From positions 1,798,001 to 1,862,000 of the forward strand of contig NZ_CP007174.1 of assembly GCF_000730285.1 (NCBI RefSeq): a stretch of 64,000 nt of DNA, written 5' to 3'. A program made the position numbers and the translations under genes. Positions 3,135-8,652 of this stretch are shown piece after piece (the stretch's first letter is position 1; the number at the start of each line of letters is the position of its first letter). A model generated the notes under the pieces. The model saw only the letters and a program-made list of their open reading frames with translations, made no database searches and was not told the origin of the DNA. This DNA comes from Candidatus Nitrososphaera evergladensis SR1 (GTDB taxonomy: Archaea; Thermoproteota; Nitrososphaeria; Nitrososphaerales; Nitrososphaeraceae).

Positions 3135-3443
3135 ATGAAGGTCTCGGAGCTGTGCACAATGATCCAGGATTCCATAAGGTCCGGGCGCTACCCGCTTGCG
3201 ACAGAGACAGAGAAAAAATTTGCTGGCGCAATACAGGTCATGCTGAAATCCGGCACTGACGACCTGAAGGCAAAGGACATTGCAGTCGAGGTCAGGGTGC
3301 ACGATTTGTACGTCGTCAACAATTACGTGCCAAACATCCAGCACCTGCCCGGAGTCATTGAAGCCGAAATTGTAGACTCGTACAGGATGATCTGCCGCAA
3401 GATAGACCGACTGGACAGCGGCGTGCAGCTGAAAAAGCTCTAG
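3135..3443 (+). CDS. Conserved hypothetical protein, thaumarchaeal type
   Basis: A 102-residue soluble protein with mixed helices and strands and no signal peptide or membrane segment. I do not recognise a characterised family. It lies 56 bases after the ligase on the same strand, has codon use like its core neighbours, and begins at a clear ATG. A possible TATA run (gttaaata, about 3088-3095) in the gap suggests its own promoter. Notable residues: a single Cys at 7 and a second Cys near position 87 (MICRK), with no metal-binding pattern. Function unknown. Confidence 0.65.
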   Translation: MKVSELCTMIQDSIRSGRYPLATETEKKFAGAIQVMLKSGTDDLKAKDIAVEVRVHDLYVVNNYVPNIQHLPGVIEAEIVDSYRMICRKIDRLDSGVQLKKL

Positions 3444-3575
3444 GATAGCAAAAGGTTCGTAGTCTTTGGAGAAAGAGTTCCGCATTCTGCTTGAGAAACT
3501 TTTAGACTAATTTTGAAGGCTCTCTAACTTTGTCTTGCGATCTATCATGGTGGATGCAGTTTCATAGGCCGCTGA

Positions 3576-3953
3576 TTATATCCAGCGAAGGACTGCTTCA
3601 ACAGTGTCACTGGGATTGGTATTGAAACATATTTTTGCAGATGGTGGTGCTTTTTGATGAATAATATTGATTATTTTCTCGAACATGTGGGTATGCTGCG
3701 GCAACGCCCTGATGCCCGCACCAATCAATATGCAATCAAATGTTTGTCGTGAAAGCGTGTTTGAGACAACGCTTTCAGCAGTCTCTCCAAGATCAACGAG
3801 ACAGCCTTGCACTTCGTATCCTAGTTCCTTTAATCTCTTGTCTGCGTCTTGTCCTGCCGCCTGCACCTTTTTGGCATCCCATCCGGTTGTCGATTTACTG
3901 AAATCAACCAACTTGGGGTCAATGCCTATCAAGAGAACTTTTTTCCTTGTCAT
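3576..3953 (-). CDS. Hypothetical Rossmann-like protein of bacterial type
   Basis: 125 residues beginning KKVLLIGIDPKLVDFS, followed by helices, the strand CLVDLGETAESVV, then DCILIGAGIRALP and a C-terminal ICFNTNP. The alternating strand-helix pattern with glycine turns suggests a flavodoxin- or Rossmann-like fold. I recall similar short proteins in soil bacteria such as rhizobia, so transfer from bacteria is likely; this recollection cannot be checked here. No cofactor motif is complete. It marks the start of an AT-richer stretch running to about 8.5 kb and overlaps a glycosylase remnant tail to tail. Confidence 0.55.
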   Translation of the reverse strand: MTRKKVLLIGIDPKLVDFSKSTTGWDAKKVQAAGQDADKRLKELGYEVQGCLVDLGETAESVVSNTLSRQTFDCILIGAGIRALPQHTHMFEKIINIIHQKAPPSAKICFNTNPSDTVEAVLRWI

Positions 3954-3988
3954 GCATTCATCTATGCCTTTTACTCTTTAACTTTTTG

Positions 3989-4425
3989 CGTTCTAGAGAT
4001 TGGGTTGTGAAAGCCATGTTCAAAATTGGATTTGCAAACAAGCCATGTAGCTTGTCTAAGAATGAGGGGCTTGCACTAACTGGGGCATATATGACTGCTG
4101 CTGTAAAATGTGCTTCTCCGCATAATGAACCAAATCCATTTGAAATATCAAACTGTTCACAACATCTTTTGGCAGAAGTACAGGTGCTGGAACAGACTAT
4201 ACAAGTTATTTTGACACTTGGAAAGGTTGCTTTTGACGCATATTGCAAACTATTTAGAATTGAAAGATTAGCATTTACTCATGGTGCCTGCTATCGCGTA
4301 GATGATCAAAAGACTTTATTGGCTTCATATCATCCAAGTAGCGAAATACTAGTACAGGGAAGCTAACATGGCAAATGTGGGTTGATGTCTTTAAAAGAAC
4401 AAGGTCACTAATAGCAAATAAATAG
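3989..4425 (+). pseudogene. Uracil-DNA glycosylase (family 5-like) remnant, truncated and frameshifted
   Basis: The reading frame gives RSRDWVVKAMFKIGFANKP, then GLALTGAYMTAAVKCASP, later LGKVAFDAYCKLF, a THGACY segment and ASYHPS. These are consecutive conserved blocks of family 5/UDGb-type uracil-DNA glycosylases. The N-terminal catalytic and iron-sulfur-ligand part is absent: upstream DNA belongs to the gene on the other strand. After SYHPS the frame runs into a stop at 4366, but two bases over the text continues as RNTSTGKLTWQMWVDVFKRT up to a stop at 4425, the normal C-terminus. So there is both a 5' deletion and a frameshift near 4335. A non-functional remnant is the simplest reading. 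Confidence 0.8.
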
Positions 4426-4508
4426 TTAATTTAAAATGGCTTATTGGGAATTACGTCACTGATACAATAGACAACATAAGACAAAGCGAGTGCTTATACC
4501 ATGCTCTC

Positions 4509-5566
4509 TCACTTTGTTTTAAACGCATAGCTGTAACTAGGGCTTACTACCTTCCCATGGTCTACAATAAGATAATCTCTTTCAATAGGGCGCCCACCAA
4601 AGAATCTGACAAGACAATCCTTTGTTCCGTCTGCATACCTCCTTTGTGCTTCCAGCGTGGTACCGGAATAATGTGGAACCATTGCTTGATTTGGCATACG
4701 CCGCCATGGATGGTCTCTTGGCGCGGGTTCGGGATACCAAACGTCACCTGCATAACCTGCCAAATGGCCCTTCTCTAGTGCCTCTACAAGAGAAAGAGTA
4801 TCAACGATCCTGCCTCGCGCACAATTAACAAGATATGCGCCCTTTTTCATACGGAAAAGAAGATCTCTGTTAAACAATCCATCCGTCTGGGGTGTCAAAG
4901 GAGCATTGATAGTAATGATGTCGGACTGTTCGACAAGTTGATCTAAAATGACATAACGTGTTCCAAGTACATGTTCTTCTACTGTACTCAAATGGTAATA
5001 GTCATAATATATCATTTTAACATCAAATGCCTTCAGTCTTTCGCATACACGTTGTCCAATCCTTCCCATTCCAAATATTCCCACAACTTTATCTTCCAAA
5101 TCATGTGCTTTTGCCGCAATTTCTGCAATATCCCATTTTCCTTCGGGAACCTGTTGTAAGCAGGAATGTAATTACGCACAAGTGCTAAAATATGCATCAC
5201 CACTTGCTCAGCCACGCTAACTACATTGCTACCGGTAATCTCGGCCATGATAATGTTGCGTGCAGCTGCTGCCTCCAAGTCAATATGATCAGAACCAACT
5301 CCTGCAGTTAGTGCCAACTTGAGTTTGGGAGCCTTTGAAATTCTTTCTTTAGTATCATAAGCTGGCCAAAACGGGGTGGTAATCAAAATATCGGTGGTAG
5401 GGAGTTGTTTGTCAAGCTCTGCTTCCTTGTCGGTTAATACAACAAATTCATGGCCTTGACTTTTGAGAAAATCTGTCAATCCTAAAGCATTCTCCGCGCA
5501 ACCCAAGAGCTCTGGCGTCTTTCTTGCTATTTCGCCCCCAGGATAGAGAACTGCTACGATTTTCAT
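4509..5566 (-). pseudogene. fdh: NAD-dependent formate dehydrogenase, interrupted by a frameshift
   Basis: Member of the D-2-hydroxyacid dehydrogenase superfamily, of the type that oxidises formate to CO2 with NAD. The upstream half (5566 to about 5153) has PFWPAYDT, LALTAGVGSDHIDLEA and the active-site Asn in ITGSNVVSVAEQVVMH. The downstream half has the dinucleotide site GIFGMGRIGQRV, NCARGRIVD (catalytic Arg), AGYAGDVWYPEPAPRDHPWR and the catalytic His in VPHYSGTT. These extended signatures fit formate dehydrogenase better than glycerate or lactate enzymes. Near 5153-5158 one base appears missing: the first frame reads YNRFPKENG while the shifted frame reads QQVPEGKWDIAEIAAKAHD, which joins the second half properly. 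It could be a recent pseudogene or a sequencing error. The family is mainly bacterial, fungal and plant. Confidence 0.85.
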
Positions 5567-6097
5567 AACTCTTTAAGTTAGAATAGTTTTCATGTAAGAG
5601 TTTGGTTCACGTCTTTTTAGCAAACATGATTAGAGAAACCCGTGAAGAATTGAATAGTTGGATATAAACGGCTCTTTCAGAATAAATAGTGACGGACGAA
5701 ACACGCTCACTGTTCTCCTTCCTCTACTTCCTCCTCCTCTTCCTCTTCGTCTTGTTCCTGATCTTCCACTTCATGTACTTCTTCGTTCGTTTCCTCTCTT
5801 TCAGCGTCTTTATTGCTACTACTGCTCATATGATGATTCGGTATACACATATCTGATACTTAACTGGCGAGTTAGAAACAATGTACACACTGGAATTCGC
5901 ATTTTTCCAAAACCAGCTTTTGATTGCCTGCAAGCCGTGTTAATGCAGCCTTCAAGTGAATGGGTCCGTCTATAACGCGACCCGAATCCGCCAACGCTGT
6001 ATATGCCTGCCCAAAGTGATTAACGTAAATTTCTATAGGATCTTTAGACGTGTTCGCTTGAGGAATGCCTTATATGGATTAGAGATGATCACAGTCT
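5567..6097. other. Intergenic stretch with one possible small acidic gene
   Basis: AT-rich spacer between the formate dehydrogenase and the Rieske fusion. Apart from the short acidic frame on the minus strand (separate entry) I see no credible gene. The forward frame across 5658-5975 is the complement of that Glu-rich codon run and has poor composition. A TATA-like ttatatgg at about 6070-6077 precedes the Rieske fusion by some 20 bases. Confidence 0.5.
5707..5829 (-). CDS. Possible small highly acidic protein (40 residues)
   Basis: From the ATG at 5829 the frame encodes MSSSSNKDAEREETNEEV, continuing almost entirely Glu, Asp and Gln to a TGA at 5707. More than half the residues are acidic and there are no aromatic residues, so it would be unstructured. 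The forward complement, Leu/Pro-rich, is less believable as a protein. Whether it is translated is unknown. An acidic tail protein could act as a nucleic-acid mimic or a chaperone-like peptide, but there is no evidence for either. Confidence 0.4.
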   Translation of the reverse strand: MSSSSNKDAEREETNEEVHEVEDQEQDEEEEEEEVEEGEQ

Positions 6098-7291
6098 ATG
6101 CCGAGGTACACTACGGCGTTAAGAAAAGGGGATTTGCAAGAGGGTAAACCCGTCAGGGTCGATGTTGGCGGTAAGGCAATCGTTCTTGTTATGGTATCCG
6201 GCAAGGTTTATGCGATGGATGCGGTTTGTTCGCACGAAGGGGGTCCGCTGGAAGATGGAACGATTGAAGAATACTCTCTTATTTGTCCCTGGCACCAAGG
6301 AATTTTTGACATACGTACGGCTAAAGCGTCTCCTGAAACTGATTGGGTTACGGACCTACATTCTTACGGAGTTGTCATCGAAGACAAAAGCGGATTGATT
6401 TCAATAGACACAAATCCCAGCGCGTCTAATTCGCCTAGTAGCGTGGGTGGCGGTGGTGGTGCGAGTCATGGTATCGCGCCGCAGGAAACCGCGGTTGCGG
6501 AGGAAGATGTAGTCGTGCCAGCACGACCGCTGAAATTCGAATTGAAGTTGCTGGAGAAAGTGTCTCATGCGGGAACGGATGTCATGTCCTTTAGATTTTC
6601 TCGTACCGATGACCAGGATAAGACTAGTAATAATAAGCTAAACTACAGAGCAGGACAGTATTCCGTAGTTGATTTGGGAACCAGAGAAGACCCGGAGGGG
6701 CCAACTCGCTCTTTTACGATAGCATCTTCGCCGACAGAAAAAGATGCTATCATGATTACCACAAGGATAAGGGACACGCCATTCAAGCAAAAGCTTTCAA
6801 AGTTGGAGGAGGGAACAGCAGTAAAAATCACAGCTCCTGCCGGCAAATTTACCCTTCCTGAAGAAGACTATTCAAGGCCATTGGTGTTTTTGTCAGGCGG
6901 AATAGGAGTGACCCCGTTTAGAAGCATGATAAAATATGCTTCGGACAAGCAGTTGCCCATAAAGATAACGATGTTCGATGCCAACAGAAATAAAGCAAAC
7001 ATCATATTCAAAGAAGAGTTTGACAGCTGCGCAAAAGCCAATGCCAAATTGAAGATTATCTATACAATTTCAGAGGAAGAGGCAAAAATTCCATCATCGG
7101 ATTGGAACGGCGAAAGGGGGTACATAGACAAGACAATGCTGACAAAATATTTAACGAAAGACGAGCTAGCCAATTCCATCTTTTACATATGCGGTCCTCC
7201 TGCCATGCTAAATGCCATGCGGCAGCTTCTGTCAGAAGAGATCAGGGTGCCTCAGGACAGGATCAAAATAGAAGTATTTACCGGCTACTAG
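6098..7291 (+). CDS. Rieske [2Fe-2S] - ferredoxin/NAD(P) reductase fusion
   Basis: One polypeptide joins an electron-entry module to a flavin reductase. Residues 1-105 form a Rieske-type ferredoxin domain with cluster ligands Cys44-x-His46 and Cys63-x2-His66 (CSHEGG, CPWHQG). A Gly/Ser-rich linker (about 108-125) follows. Residues 145-397 form a ferredoxin-NADP reductase-like unit: FAD-binding RSFTIASSP, NAD(P)-site GGIGVTPFRSM, YICGPPAML, and a C-terminal EVFTGY. It would pass electrons between NAD(P)H and an unknown partner, in the cytoplasm (no signal peptide or membrane segment). The ring-hydroxylating oxygenase that such reductases often serve is not present nearby. The ATG at 6098 starts directly at the Rieske strand. 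Domain identity is secure; substrate is unknown. Confidence 0.88.
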   Translation: MPRYTTALRKGDLQEGKPVRVDVGGKAIVLVMVSGKVYAMDAVCSHEGGPLEDGTIEEYSLICPWHQGIFDIRTAKASPETDWVTDLHSYGVVIEDKSGLISIDTNPSASNSPSSVGGGGGASHGIAPQETAVAEEDVVVPARPLKFELKLLEKVSHAGTDVMSFRFSRTDDQDKTSNNKLNYRAGQYSVVDLGTREDPEGPTRSFTIASSPTEKDAIMITTRIRDTPFKQKLSKLEEGTAVKITAPAGKFTLPEEDYSRPLVFLSGGIGVTPFRSMIKYASDKQLPIKITMFDANRNKANIIFKEEFDSCAKANAKLKIIYTISEEEAKIPSSDWNGERGYIDKTMLTKYLTKDELANSIFYICGPPAMLNAMRQLLSEEIRVPQDRIKIEVFTGY

Positions 7292-7464
7292 CGCATATGC
7301 GATGATCATCGCCACTCGTCATTATCTTGGAGTGTGCCACCGTAGCAAGAAAAGTGAAACCTATTAGTTGAGATGAACGTGGATTCTATTTTGCATCTGA
7401 TTTTTCTTCCTTTCTTGGCAAAGGCTTTTCGGCGTCTTCCTCTCCCTGTTTTATAAGCCTCTTT

Positions 7465-8040
7465 ATGGTAGCAATTGAAAAATCCGCATCCTCAAAAAAG
7501 AAGTGCAAATCTTCGGATCACCTTCGAAACTCTTTATTCCAAGATATACGCATAGGTAAAACATTGTCAAAAAGTAAGAATTCTCAGCCCGCGTCGGCAG
7601 ACGCTGAAGGGGTGTCGCCTCCCAGCAGAAGTGAGATTATTGCAGGATTAAACGAAGATCTTGCTAGGGAATACAAGTCGATAATTCAGTATGCGGTCTT
7701 TAGTTCCACATTAAAAGGACCGGAGTATGGAGATATTGCAGAGCAGCTAAAAAAACATGCCTCACAGGAACTTGCGCATGCGCTGGAAGTGGCTAGGCAG
7801 ATTGACTACCTGGGCGGAGACCCTACGGTGAAAAGCAAAGACGCGGAATTTTCGGACGATTCAAAAAAGATGCTAGAGATAGATCTTAGAGCAGAACAAG
7901 AAACTATCAAAAACTACAGGGAAAGGATTATTCAAGCAGAACGCGGTGGGGAATTTGCCCTTTCCGAAAAACTAAGAGGCATTATCGCGCAGGAGCAAGA
8001 CCATGAAATAGATCTCAAAGATGCACTCGGGCTGCGATGA
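7465..8040 (+). CDS. Ferritin-like/bacterioferritin-family di-iron protein
   Basis: Four-helix-bundle protein expected to bind two irons and either store or oxidise iron. The ligand pattern is complete: Glu69 (LAREYKSIIQY), Glu102-x2-His105 (QELAHALE), Glu144 (LRAEQETI) and Glu177-x2-His180 (EQDHEIDL). Spacing matches bacterioferritin and related ferritin-like proteins. Oddly, about 55 residues precede the first helix; they are Lys/Ser-rich and unstructured-looking. A TATA-like ttataagc sits only about 10 bases before the ATG, so translation may begin farther in. It follows the Rieske fusion by 170 bases on the same strand, in keeping with a redox/iron cluster. No heme-ligand Met can be confidently placed. 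Confidence 0.8.
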   Translation: MVAIEKSASSKKKCKSSDHLRNSLFQDIRIGKTLSKSKNSQPASADAEGVSPPSRSEIIAGLNEDLAREYKSIIQYAVFSSTLKGPEYGDIAEQLKKHASQELAHALEVARQIDYLGGDPTVKSKDAEFSDDSKKMLEIDLRAEQETIKNYRERIIQAERGGEFALSEKLRGIIAQEQDHEIDLKDALGLR

Positions 8041-8238
8041 TATTAAGATCCCAATTGCAATGTTTGAATCGCGTTATAGAAGTATCGCAATGATTGTTTA
8101 GGCGACGTTGAGTTCGATATCGCCCATCTGATAATTTCCATCACGCGAACACGTTGAAGGAATTCCTTTCTGTTGATACAAGATCTATCGTTTGAAGCAA
8201 GACGTTGTATGGTTATGTAATATAATCAGAACACAACC

Positions 8239-8469
8239 TTAACGAGATTTTATTACGGCATCCAGCTTCATGCCATCTTTTATCTTTAGTACTCTTTCGA
8301 AGGATATCTGCTCTCCCGTGTTTGGAAAGCGAAGCTCATACTCTAACGGGTCAAGCCCTGCTCTTTCTAGTATCTGTTCGGCAGTAAGGAATTCTTCACG
8401 TATTGGGATGTCCTTGAATCCGACTGTGACATTCTTTGCGCTTGGACCGTCTGTTACATCTGAAACCAT
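8239..8469 (-). CDS. Small beta-grasp protein resembling a multiubiquitin-type domain
   Basis: 76 residues: a short tail, strand VTVGFKDIPI, then LTAEQILERAGLDPLEYEL, a turn with FPNTGEQ, and a final VLKIKDGMKLDAV. The order strand, helix with an 'AGLDP' turn, strand, 'ikdGmkl' strand is like the single repeat of bacterial multiubiquitin domain proteins found beside E1/E2-like genes. This is a pattern judgement, not a search result. It ends IKSR with no Gly-Gly tail, so conjugation is not implied. It stands alone, without E1, E2 or peptidase genes in the window. Confidence 0.5.
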   Translation of the reverse strand: MVSDVTDGPSAKNVTVGFKDIPIREEFLTAEQILERAGLDPLEYELRFPNTGEQISFERVLKIKDGMKLDAVIKSR

Positions 8470-8652
8470 CTGTATGCATATTAATTATCTTGAAGGATTC
8501 AAATGATTTTCCAAGGGTGGCAACACATCATGCACATCTATCTATATATGGTCCTAATCATATTCTCCATCGCTTCTACCACCATTTGAAGAGATGTAGC
8601 GAATTCTTACCCTGCGATCTTGGTGGTGGCGGTTCTTTCTCATTCTGAAATT

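Follow-up and report, generated by a model that had tools for sequence, protein, structure and literature searches.

The genome of Candidatus Nitrososphaera evergladensis SR1 contains a frame-broken gene for an NAD-dependent formate dehydrogenase (FDH) on the minus strand at positions 4509–5566 of the window, the 64,000-nucleotide stretch analyzed here. The gene has a base composition foreign to its surroundings, groups phylogenetically with FDHs of other Nitrososphaeraceae, bears the mark of past purifying selection and lies beside a second decayed gene. We give slightly better than even chances to the account as a whole, namely that a stand-alone NAD-dependent FDH was horizontally acquired from low-GC Nitrososphaeraceae and recently disabled by the loss of a single base.

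Read through the break, the gene encodes 352 amino acids, from an ATG at 5566 to a stop codon at 4509–4511. Two overlapping open reading frames cover it on the minus strand, 5033–5566 (177 aa) and 4509–5099 (196 aa), and the coding frame of the latter extends upstream as far as the break. Homology to FDH follows the first frame up to residue 138 and the second from residue 139. The 5′ part (5153–5566, minus strand, residues 1–138) corresponds to the catalytic domain, and the 3′ part (4512–5153, minus strand, residues 139–352) to the NAD-binding domain. At the frame-change site (5150–5156, minus strand), base 5153 is claimed by both codon 138 and codon 139; since both codon series would need it, one base appears to have been lost there. 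Orthologues compared at this site have one uninterrupted frame, and the SR1 gene carries no further obvious damage besides the break and a substitution at residue 280. The sequence-only reading had reported both open reading frames at these coordinates, a single missing base near 5153–5158 and a continuous FDH-like protein once the frames are joined. The coordinates are right, the frame changes at the edge of the proposed range, and the joined protein is continuous, scoring 483.7 bits against the NCBIfam equivalog model for NAD-dependent FDH.

This score exceeds the 329-bit cut-off of the model and is more than twice that of the next family, while the halves scored singly reach 290 and 177 bits, both under the cut-off. 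Together with a score of 402 bits against Arabidopsis FDH, it excludes a chance match. The best relatives in the Protein Data Bank are likewise FDHs, from Arabidopsis, Staphylococcus and others, at 52.6–55% identity, and similarity to the known enzyme (EC 1.17.1.9, formerly 1.2.1.2; NF005750; 2NAC/2NAD, 3JTM, 6TTB) extends over the full length at 53–55%. A phylogeny of the joined protein had been suggested as a check on its family; in a tree that includes nine 2-hydroxyacid dehydrogenases, all FDHs, SR1 included, fall on one side (SH-aLRT 97). Family score, tree and frame analysis thus agree on a metal-free NAD-dependent FDH with a one-base break in a thaumarchaeon, and by its sequence the gene is assigned to this family within the D-2-hydroxyacid dehydrogenase superfamily.

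The residues expected of such an enzyme are largely in place. The extended loop of FDHs carries a PF[HW]P motif (PMC6303947), present in SR1 as PFWP at residues 65–68. The formate-binding Asn114 and Arg251 and the catalytic His299, equivalent to Asn146, Arg284 and His332 of Pseudomonas FDH, are all kept, as is Asp189, the equivalent of Asp221, which governs NAD+ specificity. Ile122 of the known enzyme corresponds to Val90, and several intact orthologues also have Val there. Besides the broken frame, a further difference from known FDHs lies at the equivalent of Gln313, a residue hydrogen-bonded to the catalytic His and implicated in the wide pH optimum of Pseudomonas FDH (PMC10127272), which is Glu280 in SR1 (codon at 4728–4730, minus strand). 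The earlier statement that both halves carry all catalytic blocks therefore holds for PFWP, Asn114, Arg251, His299 and Asp189 and needs correcting for the conserved Gln.

Among the aligned sequences, Glu occupies this position only in SR1 and in two archaeal MAGs with an intact frame (L013 and L014), and the closest relatives of the SR1 protein retain Gln. A single clade of the three Glu carriers is rejected (p 0.0045), so that, as far as these analyses show, the Glu originated separately in SR1 and in L013/L014. The two MAG sequences also have His instead of Pro just before the catalytic His (VHHYSGTT). To our knowledge, the substitution had hitherto been known as a laboratory mutant; Tishkov et al. 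(1996, FEBS Lett.) reportedly engineered Gln313Glu in the Pseudomonas enzyme and found a shifted pH dependence of formate binding. It is conceivable, though we regard it as unlikely, that a natural functional variant with Glu in place of the near-universal catalytic Gln has evolved repeatedly in archaeal FDHs; if true, the variant would link formate binding to pH or broaden the substrate range. The change also bears on whether the protein is, or was becoming, a D-2-hydroxyacid dehydrogenase-like enzyme instead of an FDH, since with it the Glu-His pair of the hydroxyacid dehydrogenase superfamily is back in place, separately in SR1 and in the two MAGs. This seems very improbable, given that the FDH-specific PFWP loop, Asn114, Arg251 and His299 are retained, that the nearest relatives retain Gln and that the tree position is within the FDH clade.

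The composition of the gene sets it apart from the window. Its GC content at third codon positions is 0.33–0.40, compared with 0.61 ± 0.09 for 48 window genes, and lies near the 0.36–0.39 of Nitrosopolaris-group FDHs. It sits in a low-GC stretch (3250–8500; GC 0.37–0.48 versus about 0.57 outside) that also holds a uracil-DNA glycosylase (UDG) remnant, a Rieske/ferredoxin-reductase fusion and a ferritin-like gene. The fusion gene (6098–7291, plus strand) joins a Rieske [2Fe-2S] domain to a ferredoxin-reductase-like FAD/NAD module and has a 75% identical paralogue at G000:C1:2853962-2855128.

Phylogeny leads to the same group of organisms. The closest relatives of the SR1 FDH come from low-GC Nitrosopolaris-type genomes (L009, L039–L041, L050), and in the tree SR1 groups with L009, L041, L042 and L050 (support 99/95). 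The FDH of the same-genus genome G008 is 77% identical to SR1 and is not the closest, and a clade uniting these two copies is rejected (AU p = 6.6e-5). Gene order around FDH is not shared between SR1 and the orthologues. A conserved operon or C1 gene cluster was likewise not found; the recognizable neighbors in relatives, named by eye from sequence, are housekeeping genes such as aconitase, a FEN1-type nuclease, isopropylmalate dehydratase and Asn-tRNA synthetase. The simplest account is a single-gene transfer into the SR1 lineage from a low-GC, Nitrosopolaris-like member of the Nitrososphaeraceae, with the direction of transfer inferred. Differential loss of old FDH copies is a possible alternative, which explains the composition of the gene less well than transfer does.

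Compared with its closest orthologue, L009, the SR1 FDH has dN 0.070, dS 0.65 and dN/dS 0.108; the differences by codon position number 27, 21 and 110, so that third positions account for 110 of the 158. Most of the divergence accrued under purifying selection. Only four SR1 substitutions occur at positions invariant in the other Nitrososphaeraceae rows. The idea that selection has been strongly relaxed along the SR1 branch was rejected, as Tajima tests exceeded 3.84 with only two of seven outgroups. Purifying selection over most of the divergence and the four substitutions at invariant positions imply that any loss of function would be recent. The scarcity of other damage counts against a pseudogene, whose decay could only have begun very recently.

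Whether the break is biological or an error in the assembly turns partly on the genes around it and elsewhere in the genome. The disabled FDH would adjoin a second pseudogene in the low-GC stretch, the UDG remnant (PF03167; 3960–4422, plus strand), which lies 3′ of FDH on the opposite strand. It is 5′-truncated, with its N-terminal third missing, and its frame changes between the HPS and NTxTG motifs. This truncated and frame-broken neighbor favors real decay of the FDH, and we lean slightly toward a biological break. The competing view, to which we assign a substantial but somewhat lower probability, holds that FDH is intact in the organism, full-length with Glu280, and that the base was dropped through a mistake in assembly or consensus calling when this PacBio genome was produced in 2014. 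A single clean lesion and a dN/dS of about 0.11 would fit it, as would the assembly procedure, in which Celera was used to assemble the PacBio reads and Ion Torrent contigs served for comparison (PMC4084955). It is a live alternative because the main SR1 UDG gene (L106, around G000:C1:74891-75560, minus strand, at about 75 kb) is full-length and otherwise intact, 91% identical to a same-genus homologue, and also has one clean frameshift, as would be expected if indel errors persist in the PacBio-based assembly; the frameshift in this gene is either genuine, making it another broken gene, or itself an artefact of assembly. Against such an error in FDH stand the PacBio depth of about 179x (PMC4084955), the true truncation of the UDG remnant and the replacement of the catalytic Gln. 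A coding-potential scan of limited sensitivity also confirmed no further split genes among candidate pairs in the window and 200 kb sampled elsewhere, the candidates checked being separate genes or lacking matching families.

The overlap of the open frames and the conservation of both halves could also be reconciled with programmed ribosomal frameshifting that joins the two frames into a protein. We consider this very improbable: the orthologues compared use one frame at the site, and inspection of the sequence around the break shows no canonical slippery heptamer. We know of no frameshifting in the FDH family.

An intact enzyme of this homodimer type would convert formate and NAD+ to CO2 and NADH by direct hydride transfer, the chemistry described for the family (PMC6303947). 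In the intact relatives, it probably removes or uses formate that is made in the cell or enters as formic acid. The sequence-only reading had proposed past use of formate as an electron source or its detoxification. As an electron source, outside formate finds no support in SR1 beyond the gene itself, since the genome lacks an FNT-family formate transporter (PF01226) and the gene has no conserved operon; the gene is, moreover, interrupted. Among 20 genomes, PF01226 occurs only in G011, which has no FDH, and in G026. Handling of internally formed formate and use of outside formate are equally likely in SR1, and both supplementation and detoxification have been raised for Ca. Nitrosocosmicus exaquare (PMC5398378).

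The sequence-only reading had described FDH of this type as mainly bacterial, fungal and plant. Its presence in a thaumarchaeon is not surprising, because the enzyme was reported from ammonia-oxidizing archaea (AOA) in 2017, 2021 and 2024. These reports cover N. exaquare (PMC5398378), Nitrosopumilales clades together with 'certain NS representatives' (PMC8397731), and Nitrosomirales (PMC10811736); moreover, our search of 400 genomes from the class recovered an FDH in 31. Within the genus, this search recovered it only from SR1 and G008. The SR1 genome paper does not mention formate (PMC4084955).

About a dozen other Nitrososphaeraceae genomes have intact orthologues, 77–87% identical to the SR1 FDH and including those reported earlier (PMC5398378, PMC8397731). 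Like the SR1 gene, they are single genes without evident operon partners; they differ in being mostly intact with Gln, whereas the SR1 copy is interrupted and occupies another chromosomal location. Interruptions also occur in Nitrosopolaris wilkensis (L041/L051), G026 (L016), G038 (L017) and a Rubrobacter plasmid (L070), all within the first ~52 residues, and a Nitrosocosmicus MAG (L048) has a strongly decayed second copy at 5421–6060, directly upstream of an intact FDH. The FDHs of Nitrosopumilaceae sediment clades (PMC8397731) belong to the same family but were acquired separately and branch within the proteobacterial type; a single clade of all AOA FDHs is accordingly rejected (AU p 4e-5).

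As far as these searches show, it is new that the SR1 copy is broken, that its composition is foreign and that its catalytic Gln has been replaced by Glu. The SR1 FDH alone leaves the view of thaumarchaeal energy metabolism unchanged. It adds one more broken case to formate oxidation in soil AOA, a patchy accessory trait that has been repeatedly gained and perhaps repeatedly lost, within an enzyme acquired separately in two archaeal families. The occurrence of Glu in two lineages, in turn, provides naturally occurring variants with which biochemists can examine how the pairing of His with Gln determines the pH range of FDH.
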